Source: Thiohalorhabdus denitrificans (lineage in GTDB: Bacteria; Pseudomonadota; Gammaproteobacteria; Thiohalorhabdales; Thiohalorhabdaceae). Taken from it: DNA of 64,000 bases. Below, piece by piece: positions 5,462 to 57,819 of this stretch. The stretch is taken from positions 372,001-436,000 of the forward strand of contig NZ_LJCP01000011.1 in assembly GCF_001399755.1 (NCBI RefSeq), written 5' to 3'. The notes beneath the pieces are model-generated. The model was not told the origin of the DNA, ran no database searches, and saw only the letters and a list, made by a program, of their open reading frames with translations. Within the stretch, counting starts at the first letter, position 1. Each line of letters starts with the position of its first letter. The position numbers and the translations under genes were made by a program.

Positions 5462-6414
5462 CAGGGGATGGCCACCTCGTCCAGGACGGCGGCGGCGTGG
5501 GCGTCGCCGGACTGCCCCTCGGCGGCCCCGGCGGGGTGGAGCCGGTGCCCGGCCACGGCGGGGAACACGGCCTGGACGTCCTCGGGGAGCACCGCCTCCC
5601 GGCCGTCCACCAGGGCCCAGGCCTGCGCCGCCCGCAGCAGGGCCAGGCCGGCGCGCGGGGAGAGACCGCTGCGGAAGCGCCCCGCCTCGCGGGTGTGCCC
5701 CAGCAGGGCCTGGATGTAGTCCAGCAGCGGCGGGGCGGCGTGGACGCGGGGCACGGCCTCCTGCAGGCTGGCCAAGTCCTCCGGCGCCATGACGGGGGCC
5801 ATCCGCTGGACCAGCGCCCCGCGGTCCTCGCCCTCCAGCAGCTCCCGCTCCGCCCGGGCGTCCGGGTAGCCTAGGGTCAGGCGCAGGAGGAAGCGGTCCA
5901 GCTGGGACTCGGGCAGGGGGAAGGTCCCGATCTGGTGCAGGGGGTTCTGGGTGGCGATGACGAAGAAGGGCTCCGGCAGGGGCCGGGTCTCCCCCTCCAC
6001 GGTCACCTGGCCCTCGCCCATGGCCTCCAGGAGGGCGCTCTGGGTCTTGGGGGTGGCGCGGTTCACCTCGTCGGCCAGCACCATCTGGGCGAACAGCGGC
6101 CCCTGGTGGAACACGAAACCGCCGGTGGCCCGCTCGTACACCGAGGCGCCGATGATGTCCGCCGGCAGCATGTCGCTGGTGAACTGAATCCGCTGCAGGT
6201 CCAGGCCCACTAGGCGGGCCAGGGCGTGGGCCAGGGTGGTCTTGCCCACGCCGGGGAGGTCCTCGATGAGCAGGTGGCCCCGTGCCAGCAGACCGGCCAC
6301 GGCCAGCCGGACAGCCTCCTCCTTGCCCAGCAGGACCTGGTTGACGCCATCGAGGAGCGCGCGCAGGGGCGCCTCCTCGACGGGAGCCGTTCCTTTCGAT
6401 GCGATGCCGGACAT
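5461..6414 (-). CDS. MoxR family AAA+ ATPase
   Basis: The 317-residue ATPase has Walker A GVGKTT at 55-60, Walker B LADEVNRA near 113-120, the MoxR insertion TQNPLHQIGTFPLPESQLDRF, and a C-terminal lid with SPRAGLALLRAAQAWA. I place the start at the ATG at 6414, which gives the family length of about 310-320; an upstream extension to 6975 is antisense to the sigma factor. It heads the moxR-DUF58-tgpA-channel operon. MoxR proteins act as chaperone-like ATPases with vWA-domain partners. Confidence 0.95.
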   Translation of the reverse strand: MSGIASKGTAPVEEAPLRALLDGVNQVLLGKEEAVRLAVAGLLARGHLLIEDLPGVGKTTLAHALARLVGLDLQRIQFTSDMLPADIIGASVYERATGGFVFHQGPLFAQMVLADEVNRATPKTQSALLEAMGEGQVTVEGETRPLPEPFFVIATQNPLHQIGTFPLPESQLDRFLLRLTLGYPDARAERELLEGEDRGALVQRMAPVMAPEDLASLQEAVPRVHAAPPLLDYIQALLGHTREAGRFRSGLSPRAGLALLRAAQAWALVDGREAVLPEDVQAVFPAVAGHRLHPAGAAEGQSGDAHAAAVLDEVAIP

Positions 6415-9780: not shown

Positions 9781-9799
9781 CTCACGGCTGCCCCTTCGT

Positions 9800-9825
9800 C
9801 CCGGGCCGGGGCCCGGGCCTTCTTG
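9800..9825 (+). terminator. Possible intrinsic terminator after the barrel gene
   Basis: CCCGGGCC at 9800-9807 pairs with GGCCCGGG at 9810-9817, followed by CCTTCTTGT. The loop is very short, so the real stem would be smaller. It sits 20 bp after the stop at 9780 and before hemH. Confidence 0.35.
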
Positions 9826-9895
9826 TGCAACGCCGGAACGGTACAATGGGGGCCGTCTTGCCACCGTCGGGGCACCGCCCCAGCAAGGGAGAACC

Positions 9896-11011
9896 ATGCC
9901 GCGCTTCAAGGGGGAACCGGACTACCGCCACGGCAGCCCGGAATGCACCGGGGTGCTGCTCACCAACCTGGGCACCCCGGATGCCCCGGACTCCCCGTCC
10001 CTGCGCCGCTACCTGCGGGAATTCCTGTGGGACCCCCGGGTGGTGGAGGTGCCCCGCCCCCTGTGGTGGCTCATCCTGCACGGCGTCATCCTGCGCACCC
10101 GGCCGGCCCGCTCGGCGGAGGCCTACCGCCAGGTGTGGGACACCCTCGGCGAGGGCTCGCCCCTGCTGGCCGTATCGCACCGCCAGCAGGAGGGCCTGCA
10201 GGCGCGGCTGGAGGAGCGGTTCAAGGGGCCGGTGAAGGTGGCCCTGGGCATGCGCTACGGTCGGCCCTCCCTGGCGGAGGGGCTGGCGGAGCTGAACCGC
10301 GCCGGCGCCCGGCGCATCCTGGTGCTGCCCCTGTACCCCCAGTACTCGGGCTCCACCACCGCCTCCACCTTCGACGCCGTCACCACGGAGCTGCAGAGCT
10401 GGCGCTGGGTGCCCGAACTGCGCTTCGTGCAGCACTACCCCAAGGACCCCGGCTACATAAAGGCCCTGGCCGCGAGCGTCCGCGAACACTGGGCCGCCCA
10501 CGGCGAGCCCGACCGGCTGGTGATGTCCTTTCACGGCGTGCCCAAGCGCTACCTGCTGCAGGGCGATCCCTACCACTGCGAATGCCAGGCCACGGGCCGG
10601 CTGCTCGCCGAGGAGCTGGGCCTCGAGGAGGGGCGCTGGCAGGTGACCTTCCAGTCGCGCTTCGGCCGGGCGGAGTGGCTGCAGCCCTACACGGACGCCA
10701 CCATGCAGGCCCTGCCCGGAGAGGGAGTGAAACGGGTGGACGTGATCTGCCCCGGCTTCCCCGCCGACTGTCTGGAGACCCTCCAGGAGATCAACGACGA
10801 GAACCGGGAGTACTTCCTTGAGGCGGGCGGCGAGGAGTTCCACTACATCCCGGCCCTGAACGACCGCGCCGACCACCTGGACGCCCTGGCCGACCTGGCG
10901 GCACGCCACAGCCGGGGCTGGCCGGAGCTGGAGGACTGGGAGCCCCGGCGCGCCGAGGCGGAGGCCAAGGCCAGCCGGGAGCGGGCCCTCGCCCTGGGCG
11001 CGGATCGGTAA
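9896..11011 (+). CDS. hemH: Ferrochelatase
   Basis: The 371-residue enzyme inserts Fe2+ into protoporphyrin IX, the last step of haem synthesis. It begins, after a short leader, with GVLLTNLGTPDAPD, has the active-site segment SFHGVPKRYLLQGDPY with the metal-binding His, the conserved TFQSRFGRAEWLQPYT, and the family ending PGFPADCLETLQEI. The ATG at 9896 follows AAGGGAGA. The window also encodes hemL and hemJ, though not in the same operon. Confidence 0.97.
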   Translation: MPRFKGEPDYRHGSPECTGVLLTNLGTPDAPDSPSLRRYLREFLWDPRVVEVPRPLWWLILHGVILRTRPARSAEAYRQVWDTLGEGSPLLAVSHRQQEGLQARLEERFKGPVKVALGMRYGRPSLAEGLAELNRAGARRILVLPLYPQYSGSTTASTFDAVTTELQSWRWVPELRFVQHYPKDPGYIKALAASVREHWAAHGEPDRLVMSFHGVPKRYLLQGDPYHCECQATGRLLAEELGLEEGRWQVTFQSRFGRAEWLQPYTDATMQALPGEGVKRVDVICPGFPADCLETLQEINDENREYFLEAGGEEFHYIPALNDRADHLDALADLAARHSRGWPELEDWEPRRAEAEAKASRERALALGADR

Positions 11012-13161: not shown

Positions 13162-13305
13162 GGACACACGCCTCCTGCTTCCGGGCCGTCCCGGCCCGGC
13201 CGAACGGTTGCCGGCCCTTCCGGTCCGGACTTCCGCAATTGCCAGTAGGGGTTACGGGACTCTATCAGCCCCGCCCCTGCCCGACCAGCAAGGGGCAGGC
13301 AAGGG

Positions 13306-22388: not shown

Positions 22389-22735
22389 AGAAAACGCCAA
22401 GGCACCAGGAAGCCAAGAAAAACGGCAGTAATAACCGGCAAGGACGCCAAGATCGCCAAGGAACGGCGAAAAGCGCATAGAAGAACCCGGTAGAAACAGG
22501 GTCTCCCCTTCCGGTGATACCCGCGAGGCGGTGGGAGTGGCTATCAGCCGCGACCGCCGAACCAAGAAACGGCGTCGCGGTCCCGGACCGCTCCCACGAC
22601 GGCCCTTCCCCACCAGGGGATGCTTCAGGTTTCTTGTTTTGTACCGTTTCTTTCTTGGGGTGCTTGGCGTCCTTGGCGGTTCGCCGTCTTGGCTTCTTGG
22701 CGCTTTGATGTTGCCTGGTTACTTCGGCTCCTGAG
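22389..22735. repeat. Nested inverted repeat: GCCAAG-type arms around a REP pair
   Basis: The left arm (about 22389-22470) contains tandem GCCAAG words on the plus strand (ACGCCAAGG, GGACGCCAAGATCGCCAAGG). The right arm (about 22645-22715) contains the complementary CTTGGCGTCCTTGGCGGTTC, so the arms are inverted to each other. Between them is a REP pair (22531-22597). The stretch fills the 398-bp gap between the Sun methyltransferase and the monooxygenase gene and holds no gene. Confidence 0.65.
22531..22597. repeat. GTAG-type REP inverted pair
   Basis: The plus-strand unit GTGGGAGTGGCTATCAGCCG-CGA (22531-22553) faces an inverted unit (22575-22597) whose minus strand reads GTGGGAGCGGTCCGGGACCG-CGA. 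The second is nearly identical to units at 52041 and 52081. Confidence 0.7.
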
Positions 22736-23024
22736 AAAGGGCCACCTCGTGGATCTCCATCCGGTTGTCCCCGGCGAACATCTCCCGCGGCGGCGGGTCG
22801 GCGTGGGCGGCGCGGAAGTCCTCCGATTCCGTCCAGGCCCGGAAGGCCGCCATGGATTCCCAATAGGTCTTAACCACGTAGGGTCCGGACTCCACGGGGC
22901 GCAGGATCTCCATGCGCACGAAGCCCGGTTGCTGCTCCACCTGCCCGGCCCGGTTACGGAAACGCTCCTCGAAGGCCTCCTCCCAGCCCTCGGCCACGGG
23001 GATGCGGTTGGCCACCACGATCAC
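22719..23024 (-). CDS. ABM-family monooxygenase (HmoA/IsdG-like)
   Basis: The 101-residue protein starts at GTG 23024, with AGGAG six bases upstream; no ATG gives the complete fold. It is a single ferredoxin-like antibiotic biosynthesis monooxygenase domain: IVVANRIPVAEGWEEAFEER, PGFVRMEILRP, and YWESMAAFRAWTESEDFRAAH. The W-S-F-W-S-F-H pattern is that of haem-degrading IsdG/HmoB-type and related enzymes. It is divergent from the Hsp20 gene. Confidence 0.85.
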   Translation of the reverse strand: MIVVANRIPVAEGWEEAFEERFRNRAGQVEQQPGFVRMEILRPVESGPYVVKTYWESMAAFRAWTESEDFRAAHADPPPREMFAGDNRMEIHEVALSQEPK

Positions 23025-23126
23025 GGTTCGCTCCTGTCGGTCGGTATCCAACACTGTGTTGATTTTCCCCTCCTCCGCCCCCATTTGAAACAGGGAAAAG
23101 GAGCGAGGCACGAGGGAGGATGCAAC

Positions 23127-23630
23127 GTGAACGGACTGGACCAAGTACGCCGCGGCCTCGGCCGCGCCTGGGACTCCGTCCTGGAAGGCTGGAACCACCT
23201 GCGGGAGAACGCCGCGGGGGCCCTGACCCGGTTCGTGCCCTCCAAGGATACCGGAGAGGTGGAAACGGCGGAGGACCGCATCGCCCTGCGCAGCCCGCGG
23301 TGGGGCCTGCTGGCCGCCGACGTCCGCGAGGCCGAGGACGAGGTGGAGGTGCGGCTGGAGGCACCCGGCATGGAGGCCGGGGACTTCGACCTGCAGGTGG
23401 AGGACCGCTACCTGGTGGTCACCGGCGAGAAGCGAGTGGAGCGCGAGGACAAGCAGAGCCGGCACTACGTGCTGGAAACCGCCTACGGCCGCTTCGAGCG
23501 GGTCATTCCCCTGCCCGCTGAGGTGGAGGAGGACAAGGCCAAGGCCAAATACCGGCGCGGCGTCCTACGGGTGACCCTGCCCAAGTCCGAGCGGGCCAAG
23601 CGCCGGCGCATCGCCGTGGAGTCCGGCTGA
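23127..23630 (+). CDS. Hsp20 small heat-shock protein
   Basis: The 167-residue protein starts at GTG 23127, after GGGAGGA. The N-terminal arm (to about 60) precedes an alpha-crystallin domain: VREAEDEVEVRLEAPGMEAG, LVVTGEKRVERED, YGRFERVIPLPAEVEEDKAKA and GVLRVTLPKSE. It is an ATP-independent holdase that binds unfolding proteins. The usual C-terminal I-x-I is weak (RIAVESG). The HNH gene starts at its stop codon. Confidence 0.93.
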   Translation: MNGLDQVRRGLGRAWDSVLEGWNHLRENAAGALTRFVPSKDTGEVETAEDRIALRSPRWGLLAADVREAEDEVEVRLEAPGMEAGDFDLQVEDRYLVVTGEKRVEREDKQSRHYVLETAYGRFERVIPLPAEVEEDKAKAKYRRGVLRVTLPKSERAKRRRIAVESG

Positions 23631-30657: not shown

Positions 30658-31782
30658 TCAGTCCAGGCGGGCGCCGTCCGGGGCGAAGAAATGCAGAGCG
30701 CCGGGGTCCAGGGCCAGGTCCGCCACCTCCCCGGGCTGCGGCGCCCCCTTCTCCAGCCGGGCCACCAGCGGGGGCGCGGTGTCGGGGGACTCCGGATCCA
30801 CCGTGGACACGGGCGGCTCCAGGTACAACAGGATCTCATGCCCGAGAAATTCGCGCATGCGCACGGGCAGGCGCAGCCGTTCCCCGCCTTCCACGCCCCC
30901 CGGCACCACGAAACCCTCTGGACGCACGCCGAGGAGCACCTCCTGGGGCCCGCCCCCGGCCAGCGCCGCCGGCACCACCTCCACCGGAAGGGTCACCTCC
31001 TGCGCCCCCAGCTCCGCGCGCCAGCCCCCCGCTTCCGGGTGGATCCGGGTCCGCAGCAGGTTCATGCCCGGGCTGCCCAGGAAGGCGGCCACGAAGGCGT
31101 TGGACGGGGCCGCGTACAACCGGTCCGGGGCGTCCATCTGCTGCACGACGCCGTCGCGCAGCACCGCCACCCGGTGGCCCAGGGTCATGGCCTCCGCCTG
31201 GTCGTGGGTGACGTAGATGGTGGTGGCGCCCAGACGCCGCTGCAGGGCAGCGATCTCGGCGCGGATACGCACGCGCAGCTTGGCGTCCAGGTTGGACAGC
31301 GGCTCGTCCATGAGGAACACGGCGGGCTCCCGCACCAGGGCGCGGCCCATGGCCGCCCGCTGGCGCTGGCCGCCGGACAGGGCCTTCGGCCGGCGCTCCA
31401 GCAGCTCCGTAATGCCCAGCAGCCGGGCGGCCTCCTCGGCGCGGCGGCGGCGCTCCGCCCGCCCCAGGCCCCGCATGCGCAGCGGAAATTCCAGGTTGCC
31501 ACGCACGGTCATGTGCGGATACAGGGCGTAGTTCTGGAACACCATGGCCACGTCCCGTTCCCCGGGGCCCGTGTCGTTCACCGGCCGGTCGCCGATGCGC
31601 ACGGTGCCGCCGGTGGCCGCCTCCAGGCCCGCGATCAGGCGCAGGACCGTGGACTTTCCGCAGCCGGAGGGCCCCACCAGCACCACCAGCTCGCCGTCCG
31701 CGACCTCCAGGGACAGGTCGCGGACCGCGGCGGTGCCGTCGGGGAAGGTTTTCGCCACCCTCTCCAGGGCCACGGCGGCCAC
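30658..31782 (-). CDS. Sugar-type ABC importer ATP-binding subunit (MalK/UgpC-like)
   Basis: The 374-residue protein has Walker A GPSGCGKST (38-46), Q-loop FQNYALYPHMT, signature LSGGQRQR, Walker B VFLMDEPLSNLDAK and H-loop THDQAEA, followed by an OB-fold/TOBE regulatory domain of about 130 residues as in MalK. No permease is adjacent; the matching permeases and binding protein lie at 37211-40414 on the same strand beyond an AT-rich insertion. It follows the FAH-family gene by 5 bp. Confidence 0.93.
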   Translation of the reverse strand: MAAVALERVAKTFPDGTAAVRDLSLEVADGELVVLVGPSGCGKSTVLRLIAGLEAATGGTVRIGDRPVNDTGPGERDVAMVFQNYALYPHMTVRGNLEFPLRMRGLGRAERRRRAEEAARLLGITELLERRPKALSGGQRQRAAMGRALVREPAVFLMDEPLSNLDAKLRVRIRAEIAALQRRLGATTIYVTHDQAEAMTLGHRVAVLRDGVVQQMDAPDRLYAAPSNAFVAAFLGSPGMNLLRTRIHPEAGGWRAELGAQEVTLPVEVVPAALAGGGPQEVLLGVRPEGFVVPGGVEGGERLRLPVRMREFLGHEILLYLEPPVSTVDPESPDTAPPLVARLEKGAPQPGEVADLALDPGALHFFAPDGARLD

Positions 31783-33623: not shown

Positions 33624-33775
33624 CGGCCTCCCCTATCTTCTTGGGCAGCCAACCTGACCTGACTCTCCCCGCCTGCGTGAATCATGCTCGGGAGAAGGCG
33701 TAGCGTGGGGAGCAGGGCTTGCGCCCTTGCGCTTGGCCAGCCCAGTCCCCTTCCAACCATTCCCTGGAGGCACCC

Positions 33776-34468
33776 ATGGGCAAGATGATCGATTTCGAGC
33801 GGCCCGACGGCCAGACCGCGCAGGGCTACCTGGTGGAGCCGGAGCATCCCGCAGGGCCTCCCGGCATCGTGGTGATCCAGGAATGGTGGGGCGTGAACGA
33901 CCAGATCAAGGGAGTGGCGGAGGAGCTGGCCGCCGCGGGCTACCGGGCGCTGGTTCCCGACCTCTACCGGGGCGATAAGACCGTGGAGGCGGAGGAGGCC
34001 GAGCACCTCATGAAGGGGCTCGATTTCAGTGATGCCGCCGGGCAGGACGTGCGCGGCGCCGTCCAGCACCTCAAAGCCACTGGCAGCACCAAGGTGGGCG
34101 TCACCGGCTTCTGCATGGGCGGCGCGCTGGCGCTACTGGCGGCGGTCCACGTCCCCGAGAGCGACGCCACCGTGGTCTGGTACGGCTACCCCCCGCTCGA
34201 ATACGTCGACGCCAACTACATCCAGGCCCCACTGCTCGGCCACTGGGGCACCCGGGACGAGATGTTCCCCATCTCCGGCGTGGACGACCTGGAAAAGAAG
34301 CTGGAGGCGGCGGGCGTGATTTACGAGTTCCACCGCTACGACGCCAAGCACGCCTTCGCCAACGAGACCGCGGACTCGTACAACCTCGAACCGTTAGAGC
34401 ACAATCCGGAGGCCGCGGAGCTGGCCTGGGAGCGGACTATGGGGTTTTTTGATAGGCATTTGAAGTAA
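33776..34468 (+). CDS. Dienelactone hydrolase family protein
   Basis: The 230-residue alpha/beta hydrolase has the catalytic Cys in GFCMGGALAL (about residue 112), an Asp in GTRDEMFP and the His in AKHAFANE, the DLH triad. The conserved IQEWWGVNDQIKGVA is near the N-terminus. It starts at ATG 33776 after CTGGAGG. DLH enzymes open cyclic dienelactones in chlorocatechol routes, but most relatives act on other esters. It is the last high-G+C gene before the AT-rich island. Confidence 0.93.
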   Translation: MGKMIDFERPDGQTAQGYLVEPEHPAGPPGIVVIQEWWGVNDQIKGVAEELAAAGYRALVPDLYRGDKTVEAEEAEHLMKGLDFSDAAGQDVRGAVQHLKATGSTKVGVTGFCMGGALALLAAVHVPESDATVVWYGYPPLEYVDANYIQAPLLGHWGTRDEMFPISGVDDLEKKLEAAGVIYEFHRYDAKHAFANETADSYNLEPLEHNPEAAELAWERTMGFFDRHLK

Positions 34469-34629
34469 AACGGGATGAGTAGCCGGGGGGAGTAGGGGCT
34501 CGGGTGATATCGAGAACCCCGGCCAAGGCAAATGGCAAAACCAAACTCCAACTTAACCCGAGCTCCCAAACGGCGGAAAGATCCGTATTTTTAATTTAAT
34601 TCTAGTCGAAAATCAGGAAAATGTGCTCC

Positions 34630-35076
34630 TTAGCCATTCCTCTTTTCCTCCTTTGCCTGAGTCATGTACTGGGTCCAATTGGTGTTCTCTTTTGATATCA
34701 ATGCTTCAACCCGATGAACCAACATTTGAAGGCGCTCCTCATCTTCACAATCGTAGGGGTCGGAACACGTTAGAAACATGTACTTTTCTTTTTTTAATGA
34801 TTCGCAGGTGGTCCTATATTCAATCCAGTGCTCTTGGAATTGATATAACCCGAGCAGGCCCGCGATGCATGCAACAATGAGCCCAAGCCCGCCAACAATA
34901 ACGCTAATATTGTCCTGATATACGTGTATATTGCCTGACAAGAAAGGAATGCTTACCGCGCAAACAATCTCGCCTACCCTGAGCCGCTTGAACCATCTTT
35001 GATTACTCTGACTTTTCCTGTCATACCAATTAATTTGGTCTTCAACACGATCTTTCAAATATTCCTCAGCGTTCAT
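34630..35076 (-). CDS. SLATT-like two-TM protein (DUF4231)
   Basis: The 148-residue protein has a charged N-terminal helix (YLKDRVEDQINWYDRKSQ), two membrane helices at about 34-50 and 57-79, then WIEYRTTCESLKKEKYMFL and an acidic helix. This pattern (WYD...K, two TMs, YR.T.E.LK.E) is that of DUF4231 in the SLATT superfamily, predicted by comparative genomics to be membrane-perturbing effectors of bacterial conflict systems. It is the last gene of the island operon, 85 bp after the previous gene, with its own AGGAAAG ribosome site. Confidence 0.82.
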   Translation of the reverse strand: MNAEEYLKDRVEDQINWYDRKSQSNQRWFKRLRVGEIVCAVSIPFLSGNIHVYQDNISVIVGGLGLIVACIAGLLGLYQFQEHWIEYRTTCESLKKEKYMFLTCSDPYDCEDEERLQMLVHRVEALISKENTNWTQYMTQAKEEKRNG

Positions 35077-35161
35077 CTGCTTTCCTGTATAACCTATCTA
35101 TCAGAAAGGGTACATAGTAGCCACTGTTTAAAGGACTTGTTCTGCATATTCAACGGTCAAA

Positions 35162-36481
35162 TTATGTTCGGTATTTCTCTAGAACAATTTCAATATCCTT
35201 AATCCATTCACAGTCAACCCCCCGGCCTTCACGCGCCTCTCTTATCATCCTTAAGTTGTTCGCCGTAGTTTCTGGCTCCCATTTTTCTCGGATCGAGGCT
35301 ATAGCTCTCCCCAAAGCATTTTGAGCCTCTTCGCGTTTTTGCGACAAAACATGTATTTCCAACTCTGTTGCATAATCCCAGTAATCAGGGTCCTTGCTAG
35401 CCAAGCGCCTTTTTACTGAATAAGCAACCACCGGAATAAGCTCCTCCCGCATTGGATCGGGAGGGTCGGAGCATTCCATCAGCGTTACAGCGTTAATTCC
35501 TGGATAGGCATCTCTCCAATCCGATTCAAAGCCCTGCCTGTATGCGTCAATAGCCTTTTTTAAGAAGGCACCTGCTGCTGGACTTTGGCTCGCTTTCGCC
35601 TTCACCCACTGATCCTTATACACTCGTCCTAGAATCCCATTGGTTTCACTACTAGGCCCATAGTTATTAATCAATTCTCTAAGCAAACCCTCTGCATCTT
35701 TGTGGCGTCCTATCCTATTTAAGGCAAAACCCAACTGTTCTTGGACAAGAATTGTTTGTTTCAGAGGAGGAGCCATCTTATCGGTCAAGCTAATCATTCT
35801 ATCCCAATCTTTGACCGCCCTATAGGAAAGAAATAAGTCAATAACAATAGCCGGATCAGCGTCGACCACGTTAATTTCTTTTTCAATTCTTCCAATTGCA
35901 TCACCATCCTGTTCCCGGGCCTGCCTTAAGCGTTCTTTCATGGCCTTTGAATACTCAACCATATCTCGGAATGCATCCGTCTTCAGCCTTTGAAGGTCAG
36001 GCCGAGGCACATCTGTTAAGAGCTGATACAAAGGGCTGTCATCTTCTGGATCACGACAAGCTTCAAGCCTTTCGGTTAATGATTGCCTAACTTTTATAGT
36101 ATTTTCTGGAAATCCATAGTCGTCTACATTGTAAAGAATTGCTCTTAGGGGAGATACATCAAATGGCATTCGCATGCCACTTCCGGCAATGGCAACTGTA
36201 CTATATGGCCTGACACCATGCCTTACACCCAACTCGTAAAACACATTAGCGTTTGCGGTTGTCAAGTCCGCTACAGCGTAGTCACACATCATGAGGCGCT
36301 CAAACATGGGTTTATGGATGATACCGCCTATTATTTCTTCATCTGCCCTTATAGGCTCTAAGCTAGCTTCCTGTATTGCAGGAGCAATTATCTGATCATA
36401 TACAACATCAAATTCTACAACCCGCCCGCTTTCATCCGATTTTCTTCCGAATGGCATAAGAACAAAGCAATAAGGGTTCAT
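35162..36481 (-). CDS. Deoxyribosyltransferase-like head fused to DUF4071 (TRAFs-binding/TPR-S) tail
   Basis: The 439-residue protein has an N-terminal Rossmann-like domain: YCFVLMPFG, then DVVYDQIIAPAI, and VADLTTANANVFYELGVRHG with Glu83 in the ELG motif seen in nucleoside 2-deoxyribosyltransferase-like folds. From about 140 onward it is helical with TPR-like repeats (ILVQEQLGFALNRIGRHKDA, SETNGILGRVYKD), matching DUF4071, the family also present in animal ASK kinases. Such proteins are predicted nucleotide-signal sensors or enzymes. The start is 12 bp after the TIR gene stop. Confidence 0.85.
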   Translation of the reverse strand: MNPYCFVLMPFGRKSDESGRVVEFDVVYDQIIAPAIQEASLEPIRADEEIIGGIIHKPMFERLMMCDYAVADLTTANANVFYELGVRHGVRPYSTVAIAGSGMRMPFDVSPLRAILYNVDDYGFPENTIKVRQSLTERLEACRDPEDDSPLYQLLTDVPRPDLQRLKTDAFRDMVEYSKAMKERLRQAREQDGDAIGRIEKEINVVDADPAIVIDLFLSYRAVKDWDRMISLTDKMAPPLKQTILVQEQLGFALNRIGRHKDAEGLLRELINNYGPSSETNGILGRVYKDQWVKAKASQSPAAGAFLKKAIDAYRQGFESDWRDAYPGINAVTLMECSDPPDPMREELIPVVAYSVKRRLASKDPDYWDYATELEIHVLSQKREEAQNALGRAIASIREKWEPETTANNLRMIREAREGRGVDCEWIKDIEIVLEKYRT

Positions 36482-36493
36482 TAATTATTCCCT

Positions 36494-36886
36494 TTACCGT
36501 GTTGCTAGATCCTGAAGCCTTTTCTCGCTCCAAGCGTAAAGGGTGATACCATTTTCCTCTAAAACCTTTGGCTTTGAACCATTTGTACCTTTCAACCTAA
36601 TCGCATATACCGGTTTACGGTTTCCTAGGGTCGTTTCTACTTCTTCACGCACCCACCGACTCCGATGAGTCCTTTCACCCACAAAAACAATTGTCCTCGA
36701 GGTACCCTTCATCGCCTTTGAGATGGCTTGGCGAATAACAGAAATATCCTCGGTATCCCATCTTTTAAGAAGATCCTTCACGCGAAAGTTAAGAGCATTG
36801 TAATTCGAGTTAACAGCTCTCCCTTTAATAGTAAGAACTACTCCACGGTCAGCTTCCGTAAAACTAAAAAAACACACATTAGGCAT
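36494..36886 (-). CDS. TIR-like protein of the MTH538/ThsB type
   Basis: The 130-residue protein opens with VCFFSFTEADRG, has NYNALNFRVKDLL, ISVIRQAISKAMKGTSRTIV, VGERTHRSRWVREEVETT and YAIRLKG. This order (FFSF...; I...I..S..TIV.VG..T..S.WV..E; GIRL) is that of TIR-like proteins such as Thoeris ThsB, with Glu81/82 where the NAD-consuming Glu is expected. The start has AAGGAG six bases upstream. It is the first gene of the island operon; no ThsA partner is present. Confidence 0.8.
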   Translation of the reverse strand: MPNVCFFSFTEADRGVVLTIKGRAVNSNYNALNFRVKDLLKRWDTEDISVIRQAISKAMKGTSRTIVFVGERTHRSRWVREEVETTLGNRKPVYAIRLKGTNGSKPKVLEENGITLYAWSEKRLQDLATR

Positions 36887-36933
36887 ATTGTTCTCCTTGC
36901 TTTAACGGTTTTCGTACCCTAATTGACCTACCA

Positions 36934-36962
36934 GCTATACGCCTTCCCATGGATAGCGTTAA
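36934..36962 (-). promoter_or_regulatory. Candidate sigma-70 promoter of the island operon
   Basis: On the minus strand TTAACG (36962-36957) and TATAGC (36939-36934) are separated by 17 bp. The -10 lies 47 bp before the TIR gene start. Both hexamers match consensus at four of six positions, so the call is tentative. Confidence 0.35.
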
Positions 36963-37210
36963 CTCGCCTGAGCAAGGTGGAAGTGGTACTTTTACGGTAT
37001 TTTTTATGTAATAACGGGAAGGACCATATAAGCATAAAATCCAGGATTAGTTTTTCTTGGGGAGCCTTATTTTACAACCACCTACCGAGTTATATGCATT
37101 CTGAAGGAATTCTTTCATCAGACAAGGTTCCACCTTTTCCCGTAATTGAGGCGCATAAATTCCTTGGGACCCATGCTCCATTTCTGCATTCCGGTTCCCC
37201 CAATACCCCC
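36963..37210. other. AT-rich non-coding edge of the island
   Basis: There is no supported gene here. A 125-residue minus frame over 37047-37424 is antisense or out-of-frame to the permease and has no family features. The change back to high G+C occurs at about 37195, next to the permease stop. Confidence 0.5.
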
Positions 37211-38050
37211 TCACCCCTTCAACCCACTTTCCGCCACCCCCCGCACGAACCACCGCTGAAACGCCAAAAACACCACGATCACCGGCGCCACCATCATCAC
37301 GCCGAAGGCGAGGATATCCCCCCATTGCAGGGGCGGCAGGGTGCGGAAGGCGGCGATGGCCACGGGCAGGGGGCGGACGCGCTCGCCGCTGGTGACCATG
37401 AGCGGCCAGAGGTACTGGCCCCACTGGAAGAGGAAGGTGAGGATGGCCACGGTGGCGAAGGCCGGCTTGGCGTTGGGGAGGATGATGCGGAAGTAGGTGC
37501 CGAGGACGCTCGCGCCGTCCATGCGCGCCGCCTCTTCCAGCTCCTTCGGCAGCCCCAGGAAGAAGACGTAGAACAGGTAGACGAAGAAGGCGTGGGCGAC
37601 GAAGGGCAGGATCTGCACCACGTAGGTGTCCCGCCAGCCGAGCAGGGTCACCTGGTAGAACAGCGGCACGGCGATGGCCTCCAGAGGCAGGATGAGCAGG
37701 GCCAGCAACCCGGCGAGCACCCAGCCCCGCCCCCGCCAGCGCAGCCGCGCCAGGGCGTAGCCGAGGAAGCCGTTCACCAGCAGGCCGCCGAGCATGATGG
37801 CGCCGGTGATTAGCACCGAGTTGAACAGGAAGCGGCCGAAGCTCACCCGCCCGAAGACGTCGCGGTAGTTCTCCAGGGAGGCCTCGGCGGGCACGAAGGC
37901 CGCGGCGCTGCCCATGTCCGCCAGGACCCGGGCGTCCGGCTTCAAGCTGCCCACCACCATGAAGGCGATGGGGGCCACGTACACCGCCGCCAGGAACGCC
38001 AGCACGGCGTAGACCAGCAGCGCCTGCAGTCCCCCCCGAAGCCGCCTCAT
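37211..38050 (-). CDS. Sugar ABC importer permease, MalG/UgpE type
   Basis: The 279-residue permease has six membrane helices and the EAA loop (ELEEAARMDGASVLGTYFRI, then ILPNAKPA) that contacts the ATPase. Its ATG at 38050 overlaps the downstream end of the MalF-type frame. The gene ends exactly where the AT-rich island begins. The likely ATPase partner is encoded at 30658-31782. Confidence 0.93.
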   Translation of the reverse strand: MRRLRGGLQALLVYAVLAFLAAVYVAPIAFMVVGSLKPDARVLADMGSAAAFVPAEASLENYRDVFGRVSFGRFLFNSVLITGAIMLGGLLVNGFLGYALARLRWRGRGWVLAGLLALLILPLEAIAVPLFYQVTLLGWRDTYVVQILPFVAHAFFVYLFYVFFLGLPKELEEAARMDGASVLGTYFRIILPNAKPAFATVAILTFLFQWGQYLWPLMVTSGERVRPLPVAIAAFRTLPPLQWGDILAFGVMMVAPVIVVFLAFQRWFVRGVAESGLKG

Positions 38051-38991
38051 TCGATCTCCCGCTTTTCGCGCACCAGCCTCCGCTGCACCAGGGTCACCAC
38101 CAGAACCAGCAGGAAGAACACCACGGTCATGGCGGCGCCCTGCGCCACCCGCTGGCGCTCGAACACGGCCGTGACCGCCTCTTACATGACCGTGGTGGTG
38201 GCGTCCAGCGGCCCGCCCTGGGTCATGATCTGCACCTGGTCGAACAGCCGGAAGGCGAGGATGGCGGTGACCAGGGCGACGAAGATCAGGGGGTTGCGCA
38301 GCTGCGGCAGGGTCACGTGCCAGAAGCGGCGCACCGGCCCGGCGCCGTCCAGTCGGGCGGCCTCGTGCAGGGTCTGCGGCACCCCCTGCAGGGCCGCAAG
38401 CAGGATGACCATCTGGAAGCCCACCCCCTGCCAGATGGACAGCAGCATGATGGCCGGCAGCGCCCAGCGGGGATCGTGCAGGAAGTCCACGGGCTCCCAG
38501 GCACCGAGGGTCAGCGTGGCCAGCGCGGCGTTCATGAGCCCGTCCGTGCCGGGGGCGTAGATCAGGATCCACACCACCGCCACCAGGGACATGGGGAACA
38601 CCACCGGCAGGAAAAACAGGGTGCGGAACACCACCATGCCGCGCAGGGGCCGGTCGAGCAGCAGGGCCAGCCCCAGAGCCAGGGCCGTCTGCAGCGGCAC
38701 CACCACCGCGGCGAACACCGCGTTATTGCGCAGGGCGTGGAGGAAGCCCGGGTCGGAGAGGATGCGGGCGTACTGTTCCAGGCCCGCCCATTCCACGGGC
38801 AGGGGCGAGCCCATGCGCAGGTCGGTGAAGGACAGCGCCAGGGCCAGGAGGAAGGGCAGCGCCACGAAGGCGAGCAGGCCGAGCAGGGCCGGGGCCGCCA
38901 GCAGCCAGGCGGCGGGGGTTTCGCGGTCGATGAAGGATTTCCAGCGATTCCGCAGTGGCATGGCCATTTTCGGCGATGTCGGGAGCTGCAT
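38047..38991 (-). pseudogene. Sugar ABC importer permease, MalF/UgpA type, with premature TAA
   Basis: The reading frame runs from 38991 and encodes six-helix permease sequence with the EAA loop (TLHEAARLDGAGPVRRFWHV). After LDATTTVM a TAA occurs at 38184-38182 where relatives have Tyr. In the same frame it continues EAVTAVFERQRVAQGAAMTV with a last hydrophobic helix and stops at TGA 38047, overlapping the MalG-type start. One base (TAC to TAA) explains the break. It could be a real nonsense mutation or a sequencing error. The truncated product is 269 residues and lacks the last helix. Confidence 0.85.
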
Positions 38992-39023
38992 CCACGCCGC
39001 AGCCGCCCGGGCTATTCAAAGTG

Positions 39024-39049
39024 GTCGCGGCGGGGGCCGCCGCTCCTAC
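39024..39049 (-). repeat. Single GTAG-type REP unit
   Basis: The minus strand reads GTAGGAGCGGCGGCCCCCGC-CGCGAC, with the full GTAG head and a GCGGCGG/CCGCCGC stem. It lies in the 67-bp spacer between the lipoprotein and MalF-type permease genes. Confidence 0.6.
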
Positions 39050-39058
39050 ATCGACTTT

Positions 39059-40414
39059 TTACCGCCTTCGTGGTTCTTCGGGGAACCGGTAGCCCTCGTT
39101 GGCCTCCAGGTCGGCGTCGATCTCCGCCGCTGCCCGCTCTAGCACCTCCCGCACGTCCATGCCGTGGCGGATGTCGGCGAAGGCGTCCTGGAAGATGGTG
39201 GAGATCACAGGGTAGGCGGGGGTTCGGGGGCGCGGAACGGCCTGGCCGCCTTGCAGCTGCTCCGCCAGCAGGCGCAGGGGGCCGTCGGGGCCGTAGAGGG
39301 GGGAGCGCTCCAGCGCCGGCCGCGTGCCGGGGACGGCGCCGTTGGCCCGGGTCATGGCGAGGACCTCCTCGTCCTCCAGCAGGAAGGCCAGGAATTCCCC
39401 GGCGGCCTCCGGGTCCGGACAGGCCCGGGCAATGCCCCAGTTCCAGGAGCCCTGGGCGGTGCGGGTGCCCCGGCCGAAGTCGGGCAGCGGCAGCACCACC
39501 AGGTCCTCCCCCACCGCCGCGCGGTAGCGGGGGTAGTTCCAGTGGCCGCCCCAGGACAGGGCCACCCGCCCCTCCGTGAAGGCGGCGTCGTCCAGGTTGG
39601 GATCCACGTAGCCCGCCTCGATCCAGCCCTGGAGCCGCTCCATGGCGGCCACCGATTCCGGACTGTCCAGCACCCCCCGCGCCCGATCGTGGTCCGGCCG
39701 GGCGATGAGGCCGCCGCCCGCCGACCACAGCACCGGCGCGAAGGCGTAGGGGAACCACTCCCCCTCGTAGTTCAGGTGCAGGTCGAGGACGGCCCCGTCC
39801 GGGTCCGCCTCCGCCAGGAGGCCCAGCACCTGTTCGAATTCCTTTACACTCCAGGCCTCCCCCGGCCCCTCCGGGATCCGTGCGCCGATCTCCTTCAGCC
39901 GGTCGCGCCGGGCGTACAGCCCCAGGGCTGAATCGAAGGCCCCCACCGAGTACAGCCGCCCCCTGAAGGTGCCCTGCTCGCGGATGGAAGGCAGGATGTC
40001 CGCCCTGGTGTCCTCCGGCAGGAAGGGGCCCACGGGACGCAGGCTGCCCTGCCAGACGTACTGGTAGAGGTAGGGGCCGTCGAGCTCCAACAGGTCCGGC
40101 AGCTCCCCGGCCAGGGCGGCCGCCTGGACCTGGGCGTTGTAGGAGCCCTCGGGGATGAGGGTGAGCTCGATGCGGATCTCCCCCTCGTGCTGGGCGTTGA
40201 AGCGGGCCACCTGCTCCCGGATGGTGCGCCGCTCCGCCTCCCGCCCGGCGTGGTGCCAGGCCTCCAGGCGGACCGCCCCCCCTTCCCCGTCCTCCCCGCC
40301 GCAGCCCGCGAGCAGGAGGAGGGCAATCGGCAGCAGGTGTCGAATCGCTTTACAGCTTGGACGGCCGTCCACTCCGTGTCCGCGGTGTCCCGTTTTTTTC
40401 GCTTTGTTTAACAA
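39059..40414 (-). CDS. Sugar ABC importer substrate-binding lipoprotein
   Basis: The protein of up to 451 residues has a signal sequence LLPIALLLLAGCGG with a lipobox Cys near residue 38, then a family 1 binding-protein fold: VRLEAWHHAGREAERRTI, LPDLLELDGPYLYQYV and VALSWGGHWNYPRY. The N-terminal 20 residues (KKTGHRGHG) look non-native, and a later start is possible, but no well-placed ribosome site decides it. It is first in the operon lipoprotein - MalF type - MalG type. The ligand is probably a sugar or glycerol-phosphodiester-like compound. Confidence 0.9.
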   Translation of the reverse strand: MLNKAKKTGHRGHGVDGRPSCKAIRHLLPIALLLLAGCGGEDGEGGAVRLEAWHHAGREAERRTIREQVARFNAQHEGEIRIELTLIPEGSYNAQVQAAALAGELPDLLELDGPYLYQYVWQGSLRPVGPFLPEDTRADILPSIREQGTFRGRLYSVGAFDSALGLYARRDRLKEIGARIPEGPGEAWSVKEFEQVLGLLAEADPDGAVLDLHLNYEGEWFPYAFAPVLWSAGGGLIARPDHDRARGVLDSPESVAAMERLQGWIEAGYVDPNLDDAAFTEGRVALSWGGHWNYPRYRAAVGEDLVVLPLPDFGRGTRTAQGSWNWGIARACPDPEAAGEFLAFLLEDEEVLAMTRANGAVPGTRPALERSPLYGPDGPLRLLAEQLQGGQAVPRPRTPAYPVISTIFQDAFADIRHGMDVREVLERAAAEIDADLEANEGYRFPEEPRRR

Positions 40415-40486
40415 GGGGAAATCCGGTCAGGCATGGGTGTTGCTCCGGAAGGGGTGTCTCCCAACCAAACACCAGAGGACTTTGCC

Positions 40487-41386
40487 ATGACAAGGACCTA
40501 CGGCACGGGCACCGCCCTGGCGCTGCTGCTGGCCGGCACGGGGCCGGTCCACGCCATCGCCGTGGACCCCTCGGAGGACGCCGACACCCTGGTGGATGCC
40601 GTCCTCGGACCGGGGATCACCCTGGATGGCGCCCCCAGCTACAGCGATGGACCGGACGCCGCACAGTCGGGAATCTTTACAGGAGGTAACGACGCGGGGA
40701 TCGGCATCGAGGAGGGCGTCCTCATGACCAGCGGCTCCGCGGCCAACGTGGACGGATCCAACCACGGCGACTACACCTCCACGGAGACGGGGGCCCCGGG
40801 CGACCCCGACCTGGATGCCCTGGTTGCGCCGGGCGAGACCCGGGACGCCGCCGTCCTCGAGCTCGATTTCTCCACCGACAGCGGCAACCTGGCCTTCGAC
40901 TACGTCTTCGCCTCCGAGGAGTACAACGAGTTCGTCGGCTCCTCGTTCAACGACGTTTTCGCCTTCTTTGTGGACGGGGAGAACATCGCCAACATCCCCG
41001 GCACCGACACGCCGGTGAGCATCAACAACGTCAACGGCGGCAACCCCCTGGGCAAGGACGCCTCCAACGCCGACCTGTTCAACAACAACGACCTCGACGA
41101 CGGCGGGCCCTTCTTCGACCTGGAATACGACGGCTTCACGGACGTGTTCACCGCAACCGCCACGGGGCTGGAGCCCGGCAGCCACACCATCAAGCTGGCC
41201 ATCGCCGATACCGGGGACAACGACCTGGACTCCGGGGTCTTCATCGAGGGGGGGTCCTTCACCAGCCGGCCCGGCGACGGCACCACCCCGGTGCCCGCCC
41301 CCGGTACCCTGCTGCTGCTCGGGGCCGGATTCGCGGGCCTGGGCTGGGCGGGGCGCAAGGCCGTCGGCGCGCCTTCCCCGGGTTGA
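40487..41386 (+). CDS. Choice-of-anchor L domain PEP-CTERM protein
   Basis: The 299-residue exported protein starts at ATG 40487 with AGAGGA upstream. A signal peptide (about 1-22, ending VHA) is followed by the choice-of-anchor L domain with FDYVFASEEYNEFVGSSFND, VSINNVNGG and TIKLAIADTGDND, and a C-terminal sorting signal VPAPGTLLLLGAGFAGLGWAG with an Arg-Lys end. PEP-CTERM tails are processed by an exosortase, so the genome should encode EpsH/XrtA-type machinery, usually tied to exopolysaccharide. It is divergent from the ABC lipoprotein gene. Confidence 0.93.
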   Translation: MTRTYGTGTALALLLAGTGPVHAIAVDPSEDADTLVDAVLGPGITLDGAPSYSDGPDAAQSGIFTGGNDAGIGIEEGVLMTSGSAANVDGSNHGDYTSTETGAPGDPDLDALVAPGETRDAAVLELDFSTDSGNLAFDYVFASEEYNEFVGSSFNDVFAFFVDGENIANIPGTDTPVSINNVNGGNPLGKDASNADLFNNNDLDDGGPFFDLEYDGFTDVFTATATGLEPGSHTIKLAIADTGDNDLDSGVFIEGGSFTSRPGDGTTPVPAPGTLLLLGAGFAGLGWAGRKAVGAPSPG

Positions 41387-46147: not shown

Positions 46148-46815
46148 GATCGGCGGGGCCCTACCTGGGGCTGGTGGCCCTATGGGCGGCCTATTTCGCC
46201 GTGCACTCGCTGCTCGCCGCACGCCGCCCCAAGGCGTGGGCGGCGCGCCAGGGGCCGGCCGCGGTCCGCGTCTACCGGCTGGCCTACAATGGGCTGGCGG
46301 TGCTCCTGCTGGTGCCGCCGCTGTGGCTGACCTTCACCCTGGACGGTCCCATGGTGCTGCAGTGGTCGGGGCCGGCTTGGTGGCTCGCCCAGGGGGCGGC
46401 GCTGCTGGCGCTGGCTGGTTTCGTGGCCAGCCTGCGGGCCTACGACATGGAGCATTTCCTGGGCTTGCGCCAGTGGCGCGCCCCGGAGATCACCAACGGC
46501 GGGGTGGAGCCGTGGGAGCCCATGCGCCTGTCGGGCTTCCATCGCCACGTGCGCCATCCGTGGTACTTCTTCGGCCTGGTGATCCTCTGGACCCGCAACC
46601 TGGACCTAGCCCTGTTCCTGACGGCGCTGACCATAACCGTCTATCTGGTGATCGGCTCCCGGCTGGAGGAGCGGAAGCTGATGGAGACCTACGGGGACGC
46701 CTACCGGGCCTATCGACAGCGGGTGCCGGGGCTGTTCCCCCTGCCGGGCCGCCGTCTCACCCGGGCCCAGGCGGAGGAGCTGGTGCGTAGGGCCAATGGG
46801 GAGGAGGACGCATGA
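46132..46815 (+). CDS. Membrane methyltransferase-like protein (NnrU/ICMT family)
   Basis: The 227-residue protein has about six membrane helices, and a C-terminal pattern FHRHVRHPWYFFGLVILW with RLEERKLMETYGDAYRAYR, which is the SAM-site signature shared by isoprenylcysteine methyltransferase, PEMT and NnrU-like families. The ATG at 46132 lies inside the bioC end, and its stop overlaps the bioD ATG. Its placement between bioC and bioD is unusual and its substrate unknown. Confidence 0.85.
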   Translation: MEDVLGSAGPYLGLVALWAAYFAVHSLLAARRPKAWAARQGPAAVRVYRLAYNGLAVLLLVPPLWLTFTLDGPMVLQWSGPAWWLAQGAALLALAGFVASLRAYDMEHFLGLRQWRAPEITNGGVEPWEPMRLSGFHRHVRHPWYFFGLVILWTRNLDLALFLTALTITVYLVIGSRLEERKLMETYGDAYRAYRQRVPGLFPLPGRRLTRAQAEELVRRANGEEDA

Positions 46816-47519
46816 CGCGCACATTGGTGGTGACCGGGACCGGCACCGAGATCGGCAAGACCTACATAAGCGCCGCCATCGCCCGGCAGCTGCGCGCGCG
46901 CGGCGAGACGGTTGAGGCCACCAAGCCCGTGAGCAGCGGCTGCGAGGCCGACGACCAGGGCCGCCTGTGGAGCCCCGACGGCCGGGAGCTGCTGGCGGCC
47001 TGCGGCTACGACCCGGACGATTGGGCGGCCCACCAACGCCTGTGCCTGGAGCGCTTCGCCGAGCCCATGTCGCCCCACATGGCCGCCGACCGTGCCGGAC
47101 GCATCCTGTCCCTGAAGATGCTGACGGGCTACTGCGAGAGCCTGGAGGGGGAGACCGACGGCTGCGTGCTGGCGGAGGGGGTGGGCGGGGTCATGGTGCC
47201 GCTCACCGACAGCACCACCTTCCTGGACTGGATGCGCGACCTGCAATGGCCCGCCCTGCTGGTGGCGGGCACCTACCTGGGCACCCTCAGCCACACCCTC
47301 ACCGCCCTCCGGTGCCTGAAGGACGCCGGGGTGCCGCTGGCCGGCCTGGTGCTCAACCGCAGCGCCGAGGAGCCGGTCCCCGCCGAAGAGACCCGCCGCA
47401 CTCTCAGCTTCTTCCATCCCGACGTGCCCGTGGCGGTGGTGCCGCGCGCCGCGGAGGGCGAGACGGCGCCGGAGCTGCCCGACCTGGTGGAGGCCTTCGG
47501 CATCGGCCGGGGGGAATAA
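46812..47519 (+). CDS. bioD: Dethiobiotin synthetase
   Basis: The 235-residue enzyme uses ATP and CO2 to close the ureido ring of dethiobiotin. It has the P-loop VTGTGTEIGKTYISA at the N-terminus, ATKPVSSGCE, and AEGVGGVMVPLTD. It overlaps the preceding gene by ATGA and ends the operon; a hairpin terminator follows at 47546. bioB is not in the window. Confidence 0.96.
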   Translation: MTRTLVVTGTGTEIGKTYISAAIARQLRARGETVEATKPVSSGCEADDQGRLWSPDGRELLAACGYDPDDWAAHQRLCLERFAEPMSPHMAADRAGRILSLKMLTGYCESLEGETDGCVLAEGVGGVMVPLTDSTTFLDWMRDLQWPALLVAGTYLGTLSHTLTALRCLKDAGVPLAGLVLNRSAEEPVPAEETRRTLSFFHPDVPVAVVPRAAEGETAPELPDLVEAFGIGRGE

Positions 47520-53296: not shown

Positions 53297-53395
53297 TTGC
53301 TTTCCCTCTCAAGAAGGTGGGGCGGGTTGAACTTCCCGGCCCGCGCCCCAAGATGGGACAAGCCCGTTCCTGCAACCCATGGGAGCACCCGAGCC

Positions 53396-54064
53396 ATGCC
53401 AGGGGAAGCCGTATCCGCCGCCATGGACCACCGCCTGTCGCCCATACGCGGCGCCTACTTGATCGCCGACCGCGAGCACCTGTCCGCCGAGCGCCTGCTC
53501 CCGGCCACCCGGGAGGCCCTGGAGGGCGGGGTGCGCCTGGTGCAGTACCGCGACAAGGGCACCGACCGGGAGCGGCGCCTGGAGGAGGCGCGGGGCCTGG
53601 CGGCGCTGTGCCACGACTATGGGGCCCTGTGCATCGTCAACGACGACCCGGAGCTGGCCCGGGACGCCGGCGCCGACGGGGTGCACCTGGGCGGCGACGA
53701 CGCCTCCATCGCCGCGGCCCGGGAGCTGCTGGGCCCGGGGGCGGTCATCGGGGCCTCCTGCTACAACGACATCGGCCGGGCCTTCGCCGCCCGCCGCGCC
53801 GGCGCCGACTACGTGGCCTTCGGCTCCTTCCACCCCTCCCCCACCAAGCCGGCCGCGGTGCGCGCCCCGCTTTCCCTCCTCAAGCGGGCCCGCGCCCAGC
53901 TGGACCTGCCCATCGTCGTAATCGGCGGCATCACCCCCGACAACGCCGGGCCCCTGGCCCTGGCCGGCGCCGACGCCGCCGCGGCCATCAGCGGCATCCT
54001 GGACGCCCCGGACATCCGCGCCGCCGCCCAGCGGCTCAACAACCTCCTGCGCCTGCACTGGTGA
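53396..54064 (+). CDS. thiE: Thiamine-phosphate synthase
   Basis: The 222-residue TIM barrel joins HMP-PP and thiazole phosphate. Motifs are VRLVQYRDKGTDRE, IVNDDPELARDAGADGVHLG, SCYNDIGRA, DYVAFGSFHPSPTKP, VVIGGITPDNAGPL and AAAAISGILDAPD. The start may be ATG 53396 or ATG 53423 (MDHRLSP). I looked for a TPP riboswitch upstream and found none. Confidence 0.96.
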   Translation: MPGEAVSAAMDHRLSPIRGAYLIADREHLSAERLLPATREALEGGVRLVQYRDKGTDRERRLEEARGLAALCHDYGALCIVNDDPELARDAGADGVHLGGDDASIAAARELLGPGAVIGASCYNDIGRAFAARRAGADYVAFGSFHPSPTKPAAVRAPLSLLKRARAQLDLPIVVIGGITPDNAGPLALAGADAAAAISGILDAPDIRAAAQRLNNLLRLHW

Positions 54065-54135
54065 GGGCGATTGACAGCCACGGGGGCACCTTTTAGCTTG
54101 ATCGGTTTCCCGGAACCCCCCTTTGGAGTGGTGTC

Positions 54136-55596: not shown

Positions 55597-56325
55597 ATGG
55601 CAAGCGAAACGGATCGGCAGCCCGCGGCCGCACCCCCCGCAGACCAGCCCGGGCACGGGCCCGTGGCTGCCGCGCAAGGGAGCGCCCCCCGGCTCGAGGG
55701 GGTGGGGCTCTCCTGCGTGCGCCGTGACCGCGTGCTGTTCGAGGGCTTTAACCTCTCCCTGGGCCCCGGCGAGCTGATCCAGATCGAGGGCGCCAACGGC
55801 AGCGGCAAGACCAGCCTGCTGCGCATCCTGTGCCTGCTGGCCCTGCCCGCCGAGGGGGAGGTGCGCTGGAGCGGAAGCAACGTGGAGGAGGTGCGCCCGG
55901 AGTTCCTGGAGGCCCTCACCTACATCGGCCACGCGCACGGGGTGAAGGCGGACCTCACGCCCGTGGAGAACCTGCGGGTGGCCTCGGCCTTGGGCGCGGG
56001 CTGGGCTGCCATGGACCCCGACGAGGCCCTGGCCCGCATCGGCCTGGCGGGCTTCGAGGACAAGCCGGTGCGCGAGCTCTCCGCTGGGCAGACCCGCCGC
56101 GTGGCCCTGGCGCGCCTGCTCATCCACCCCACGCCGCTGTGGATCCTCGACGAGCCCTTCACCGCCCTGGACCGCAAGGGCAAGGCCTACGTGGAGGCGC
56201 TGCTGCGCGAGCACTGCGAGGCCGGCGGCATGGCGCTGATCACCACGCACCAGCCCGTGGACCTGGGCGCCGCCACCATGTCCCGCATCCACCTGGGCCC
56301 CGAGGCGGCCACGGAGGGGGACTGA
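55597..56325 (+). CDS. ccmA: CcmA, ATPase of the haem-handling ABC complex
   Basis: The 242-residue ATPase has Walker A GANGSGKTS, signature LSAGQTRRV, and Walker B WILDEPFTALD. With CcmB and CcmC it releases holo-CcmE in System I cytochrome c maturation. The first 35 residues before RLEGVGLSCVRR are an Ala/Pro-rich extension; an earlier frame to 55546 is less likely. It heads ccmABCDEFGHI. Confidence 0.95.
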   Translation: MASETDRQPAAAPPADQPGHGPVAAAQGSAPRLEGVGLSCVRRDRVLFEGFNLSLGPGELIQIEGANGSGKTSLLRILCLLALPAEGEVRWSGSNVEEVRPEFLEALTYIGHAHGVKADLTPVENLRVASALGAGWAAMDPDEALARIGLAGFEDKPVRELSAGQTRRVALARLLIHPTPLWILDEPFTALDRKGKAYVEALLREHCEAGGMALITTHQPVDLGAATMSRIHLGPEAATEGD

Positions 56326-56327
56326 AC

Positions 56328-56996
56328 ATGGGCCGCGCCTTCGCCACCATCCTCGCGCGCGACCTCACCCTGGCCCTGCGCCACCGCAGCGAGCTGGGCA
56401 ACCCCCTGATGTTCTTCATCGTGGTGGTGACCCTGTTCCCCCTGGCCCTGGGCCCGGAGCAGGACATCCTCACCCGCGTGGCGCCGGGGATCATCTGGGT
56501 GGCGGCCCTGCTGGCGGCCACCCTGTCCATGGACGGCATGTTCCGCTCCGACTTCGAGGACGGCTCCCTGGAGCAGATGCTGCTGTCGCCCCACCCCCCG
56601 GCGCTACTGGTGGTGGCCAAGGTGCTGGCCCATTGGCTGGTGACCGGGCTGCCCCTGATCCTCATCTCGCCGCTGCTGGCCCTGTTCCTGCACCTGCCCC
56701 TGGAGGCATTGCCGGTACTGCTGGCCACCCTGGCCCTGGGCACCCCGGTTTTGTCCATGGTGGGCGCCATCGGCGTCGCCCTGACCGTGGGCCTGCGCCG
56801 GGGGGGGCTGCTTTTGACCCTGCTGGTGCTTCCGCTGTATATACCGGTGCTGATCTTCGCCGCCGGGGCCGTGGACAACGCCGCCGCCGGGCTGCCGGTG
56901 GCCGGGCAGCTGTACTTCCTGGCCGCCTTGCTGGTCCTGGCCCTGACCCTGGCGCCCCTGGCCACCGCCGCGGCCCTGCGCATCAGCGTCGCCTGA
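56328..56996 (+). CDS. ccmB: CcmB, membrane subunit
   Basis: The 222-residue protein has six membrane helices, starting FATILARDLTLALRHRSEL, with LFPLALGP, DGSLEQMLLSP and LYIPVLIF. It starts 2 bp after ccmA. It forms the ABC permease with CcmA. Confidence 0.96.
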   Translation: MGRAFATILARDLTLALRHRSELGNPLMFFIVVVTLFPLALGPEQDILTRVAPGIIWVAALLAATLSMDGMFRSDFEDGSLEQMLLSPHPPALLVVAKVLAHWLVTGLPLILISPLLALFLHLPLEALPVLLATLALGTPVLSMVGAIGVALTVGLRRGGLLLTLLVLPLYIPVLIFAAGAVDNAAAGLPVAGQLYFLAALLVLALTLAPLATAAALRISVA

Positions 56997-57075
56997 CCGG
57001 GCCCTCGGGGTCCCGTATTCGAGGCTTTCCTATGATCGCCACACACCCACCCACTGCATGCGAGGCGGGCTAGTC

Positions 57076-57819
57076 ATGTTCCAGTGGATCCACAAGTACG
57101 GCTCCCCCCGCTACTTCTACGGCTTCTCCCGGCGCCTGACGCCCTGGCTGGGCGCGATCACGGCCCTGCTGCTGGCGGTGGGGACCTACTGGGGCCTGGT
57201 GGTGGCGCCGGCGGACTACCAGCAAGGCGACAGCTACCGGATCATCTTCATCCACGTCCCGGCGGCCTGGATGTCCATGTTCGTGTACATGGTCATGGCC
57301 GTGTCCGGCATCATCACGCTGGTGTGGCGCATGAAGGTGGCGGAAGCCATGATGCGCGCCTCCGCGCCCCTGGGGGCGTCGTTCACCTTCCTGGCCCTAG
57401 TGACCGGCTCCCTGTGGGGCAAGCCCATGTGGGGCACCTACTGGGTGTGGGACGCGCGGCTCACCTCCGAGCTGATCCTGCTGTTCCTCTACCTGGGCTT
57501 CATCGCCCTGCAGTCGGCCATCGAGGATCGCCGTACCGCCGCCCGGGCAGGGGCGGTGCTGGCCCTGGTGGGCGTGGTCAACATCCCCATCATCCATTAC
57601 TCCGTGGAGTGGTGGAGCACCCTGCACCAGGGCCCCACCGTCACCAAGTTCGACGCCCCCTCCATCTCGATGGGCATGCTGATCCCCCTGCTGATCATGG
57701 CCACGGGCTTCACGCTCTATTTCTTCACGGTGGCCTTCAAGCGCGTCCGGGTGGAGATCCTGGAATCGGAGGCCGGAAGCAGCTGGGTGAGGGAACTGGC
57801 GGACGAGAAGGGAAACTAA
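57076..57819 (+). CDS. ccmC: CcmC, haem delivery to CcmE
   Basis: The 247-residue protein has six membrane helices and the WWD-type haem-binding motif WGKPMWGTYWVWDARLTSEL, with conserved His in FIHVPAAWMSM and IPIIHYSVEWW. It attaches haem to CcmE in the periplasm. ATG 57076 (MFQWIHKYG) is the family start; six codons upstream are also open. Confidence 0.97.
   Translation: MFQWIHKYGSPRYFYGFSRRLTPWLGAITALLLAVGTYWGLVVAPADYQQGDSYRIIFIHVPAAWMSMFVYMVMAVSGIITLVWRMKVAEAMMRASAPLGASFTFLALVTGSLWGKPMWGTYWVWDARLTSELILLFLYLGFIALQSAIEDRRTAARAGAVLALVGVVNIPIIHYSVEWWSTLHQGPTVTKFDAPSISMGMLIPLLIMATGFTLYFFTVAFKRVRVEILESEAGSSWVRELADEKGN

Follow-up and report, generated by a model that had tools for sequence, protein, structure and literature searches.

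Can an ABC transporter permease gene that reads as a member of its family from end to end, save for one in-frame stop codon, still yield a functional subunit, and if not, how did the stop arise? The question is raised by a gene of Thiohalorhabdus denitrificans located in a stretch of 64,000 nucleotides (contig NZ_LJCP01000011.1, positions 372,001 to 436,000), which is referred to below as the window. Starting at 38991, the translation runs through 269 amino acids, a TAA, another 44 amino acids and finally a TGA, which overlaps the ATG of a second permease gene in the form ATGA (Table 1). An earlier note on this DNA, made from the letters alone, had described the frame as open and family-like beyond the TAA up to this overlap. 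The translation bears this out, and 38 of the 44 residues behind the TAA match the ortholog from the same genus (six amino acid differences); hence, the open frame in this part is coding sequence rather than a product of chance. The start at 38991 is uncertain and may have been placed a few codons too far upstream, because the conservation with the same-genus relative begins only around the Met codons 38967/38961.

Table 1. Features of the window at and around the interrupted permease gene.
Feature	Position	Strand	Basis or remark
MalF/UgpA-type ABC permease gene (first permease) with one in-frame TAA	38047..38991	minus	translation, Pfam, intact ortholog and relatives
In-frame TAA at codon 270 (numbered from 38991)	38182..38184	minus	Tyr in the same-genus ortholog
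44 family-like codons behind the TAA, with the sixth hydrophobic segment	38050..38181	minus	ortholog alignment, hydropathy
Second permease gene (MalG/UgpE type), intact	37211..38050	minus	overlaps the end of the first permease gene (ATGA)
Substrate-binding protein gene (SBP_bac_8 / SBP_bac_1), intact	39059..40414	minus	same operon
MalK/UgpC-type ATPase gene	30658..31782	minus	UgpC subfamily, E 3.8e-125
Low-GC inserted islet with SLATT, TIR-like/TPR-S and ThsB-type TIR genes	34630..36886	minus	between permeases and ATPase

The part of the product encoded before the TAA is recognized by the Pfam profile BPD_transp_1 (PF00528) with 52.6 bits (E 5.9e-14; curated cut-off 26.4), and a profile search across the TAA raises the score to 68.2 bits, covering profile positions 12-182 of 184 with the one TAA inside. 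The best NCBIfam match is UgpA with 135.1 bits. This is far below the cut-off of 335 for the UgpA equivalog (NF007852), and the substrate is therefore not named by these models. Glucosylglycerol was considered as a candidate, as many of the near relatives belong to cyanobacteria and salt-loving gammaproteobacteria, but a literature search settled nothing and this substrate is not claimed here. Among solved structures, a mycobacterial-type sugar permease (7cad and others), SugA (8ja7) and MalF are the best relatives; they align over almost the whole permease including the lost part, in the case of 7cad up to query residue 303. Permeases of this kind carry the EAA motif (EAA...G.........LP) in a loop that contacts the ATPase. 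Here, the EAA loop EAARLDGAGPVRRFWHVTLP precedes the TAA and is retained in the shortened product. The read-through frame contains six hydrophobic segments according to hydropathy, the sixth of which (residues 285-303) lies behind the TAA, so that the encoded permease has five instead of six. The last membrane helix would thus be missing, as the earlier note had anticipated, and inactivity is to be expected of a permease that lacks the final core helix.

With BPD_transp_1, an EAA-type loop and an operon shared with a binding protein and a second permease, the gene resembles those for the first subunits of CUT1-type importers such as UgpA, MalF and the mycobacterial trehalose permease SugA, from which it differs in that its product is cut after residue 269. 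The operon runs from the binding protein gene via the first to the second permease gene, and a MalK-type ATPase is also present in the genome, where some 5.4 kb now separate it from the permeases.

A comparison with relatives, which the earlier note had proposed, bears directly on the origin of the stop. The same-genus ortholog (G001, 86% amino acid identity) is open from end to end. Furthermore, a stop occurs within the match in none of the 89 relative loci examined, which comprise 80 from one search and nine of the 30 loci of another search (weaker ones were left out) and are not all independent, given that L005 and L049 apparently represent one contig and the matches of L069 and L070 are identical. 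In the column of codon 270, these loci have Tyr (58), Phe (19), His (6), Ile (3) or, in one case each, Asn, Leu and Gln. Judged from these sequences, the TAA is private to this genome. A one-base change from a Tyr codon, as suggested before, is its simplest history, because the ortholog is intact, no stop is found in the 89 loci and Tyr is the commonest residue at this position.

The comparison with the same-genus relative uncovered no frameshift and no further stop in the gene; the two permeases align without gaps over 1754 bases with 88.9% identity. The dN/dS ratio against this relative amounts to 0.26 before the TAA and to 0.44 in the 44 codons after it, a value that derives from 6.5 nonsynonymous and 5.5 synonymous differences and means nothing alone. 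The second permease and the binding protein give 0.32 and 0.29, respectively. When amino acid changes were polarised with 81 outgroup sequences for the first and 74 for the second permease, 10 changes fell on the window lineage versus 21 on that of the relative before the TAA (one tie), 3 versus 3 after it and 11 versus 20 in the second permease. Hence, the window lineage did not accumulate changes in excess, with the part behind the TAA comprising 44 codons. Since neither decay nor an excess of changes is visible, the gene appears to have been maintained by selection until very recently, or may still be. As it shows no other damage, the change to TAA would be either very recent or wrong.

The most likely reading is that of a real, very recent nonsense mutation that inactivates the importer of the sequenced strain, and this can be considered probable. 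A Tyr codon in the gene of the first permease would very recently have become TAA through a single-base substitution. Translation would then break off past residue 269, leaving a chain with five of the six hydrophobic segments, the core permease pair could not form properly and the importer would be inactive, with its other genes intact and the broken gene having had no time to decay. Within this sequence of events, we infer two points: the base in the record is the true one, and the permease no longer transports once its last helix is gone. The case matches single-nonsense pseudogenes or loss-of-function alleles in that a lone in-frame stop is confined to a single genome, the orthologs are intact and further decay is missing, and no difference from them was found, base error aside. 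The own genome holds no close back-up copy that might replace the permease, its next match being weak (E 1.9e-5). If the mutation is real, one strain has recently lost a sugar-type or solute importer, whose operon an inserted islet had already separated from the ATPase.

A less likely but still plausible alternative is that the assembly carries a wrong base introduced by a sequencing, library or consensus error, and that the gene is intact in the organism, in which case one annotation would have to be corrected. The stop is a single private substitution without further damage and missing from all relatives examined, the absence of decay fits a wrong base equally well, and the intact partner genes of the system fit an error, too. 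Then again, the assembly is apparently of good quality, with 15 contigs and a completeness of 99.89%, and stop-making errors are rare in it: this permease is the only one of ten PF00528 matches in the genome with a stop inside, none of the 40 PF00005 (ABC ATPase-family) matches has one, and a comparison with 110 kb of the relative revealed no other convincing internal stop in the shared window genes. Moreover, bacterial genomes commonly harbor genuine nonsense alleles, which also weighs against an error. These observations speak against a poor assembly, yet one wrong base would be compatible with them.

The comparison of the window genes kept 52 non-overlapping best-matching frames, some of which are shadow frames; a longer shadow frame, to which a stop at 38725 belongs, masked the permease gene there. 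Five open reading frames end more than ten codons away from the corresponding end in the relative. One of these (2520-5870) ends about where the relative does upon checking, three (53309-54133, 56240-57073 and 46180-46605) were taken as shadow frames because matched frames overlap them on the other strand, and the fifth (38561-39142) was taken as a shadow frame overlapping the permease gene. An internal stop at 46788 lies in a shadow frame of two adjacent genes, and those at 13254, 33551, 41890, 48290, 53311, 63041 and 16855 are situated near alignment ends or in a short shadow frame. Among the 40 matches of the search that supplied the nine loci, stops also appeared in three distant ones (30-34% identity), which were not used, namely one TGA and one TAG in G053:C51, one TGA in G053:C5 and one TGA in the own-genome match C11:350555, the last of which was gone in the profile search.

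It is improbable that the TAA is read through often enough to supply some full-length permease. The earlier note had offered a dead transporter, a wrong base and repair by readthrough as outcomes; the first two stand, and the third is disfavoured by the nature of the stop as a TAA, its lack of conservation and the absence of a suppressor tRNA among those found. Frame, sequence and selection pattern are indeed preserved behind the stop, and the base following it is a G, which in E. coli lowers termination accuracy when placed right after a stop, according to PMC11126739. In the same work, however, TAA is the least leaky stop in E. coli, and TAA reporters in rich medium averaged 0.01 to 0.05% of the control. 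Likewise, PMC7918605 presents in-frame stops with dN/dS below 1 in many prokaryotic genes as proposed readthrough sites. The permease shares the low dN/dS around the stop with these candidates, but their support in that study rests on stops conserved among relatives, whereas the TAA considered here occurs in no relative examined. In addition, TAA terminates five window genes exactly at the gene end of the relative (9287-11011, 22719-23564, 33704-34468, 46791-47519 and 56947-57819), and three RF-1 family matches in the genome point to the presence of release-factor-family genes. A stop anticodon occurs in none of the 47 tRNA genes (all 47 matches in loci read by ARAGORN), a list that is incomplete, as tRNA-Ile(GAT) and tRNA-Ala(TGC) were not seen and some tRNA may be missing. 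These normal terminators, the RF-1 family proteins, the lack of a stop anticodon and the unconserved TAA led us to reject a reassignment of TAA, and the permease stop does not argue for recoding in this organism.

Least probable of all is a stop followed by a restart, in which a five-helix permease and a separate 39-residue peptide starting at the GTG 38166-38164 and containing the last helix would form a split permease: GAGG directly follows the TAA, the GTG lies 15 bases past the stop and the last helix forms a compact segment of its own, but the GAGG...GTG is no adaptation because the intact relative has almost the same letters, which encode conserved residues there, and no relative examined is interrupted. 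If it were true, this would be a natural case in which the change of one base divided a membrane protein into two parts that together still transport. Taken as a loss-of-function allele, which is most likely, or possibly as a base error, the permease stop would be an ordinary feature, with recoding or rescue being unlikely.

With regard to the surroundings of the gene, an ATP-binding-cassette-like frame directly follows the second permease gene in the five relative loci that were inspected by eye. In the window, the islet (GC 43-45% versus about 70% around it) and other genes separate the permeases from the ATPase. The islet comprises three minus-strand genes for a SLATT/DUF4231 membrane protein, a MAP3K_TRAF_bd/TPR-S protein (weak TIR-effector match) and a ThsB-type TIR protein, and resembles a Thoeris-related defence cassette of the TIR-SLATT kind. 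At the same spot, the same-genus genome (L113:12012-13842, corresponding to window 34475-37211) harbors an AbiEi/AbiEii pair instead of the TIR, TPR-S and SLATT genes. Conceivably, the region downstream of the second permease gene is a small turnover spot for defence-type cassettes. A search for plasmids returned relatives of less than 60% identity only, and a promoter and terminator scan yielded nothing above shuffled sequences.

The permease pair (37211-38964) is much nearer to its same-genus copy (dS 0.21-0.29) than the adjoining binding protein gene (dS 0.69). Local exchange between lineages at the pair is possible, judging from these distances, though other blocks of the window are also near 87%. 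Next to the AbiE pair of the same-genus genome lies a 159-base relic of a second-permease gene (L113:13906-14064), which is equally distant (about 89%) from the intact copy of its own genome and from that of the window and is perhaps a remnant of a third, diverged copy. Beside the operon, a secreted-looking protein encoded at 40433-41386 bears a PEP-CTERM sorting signal.
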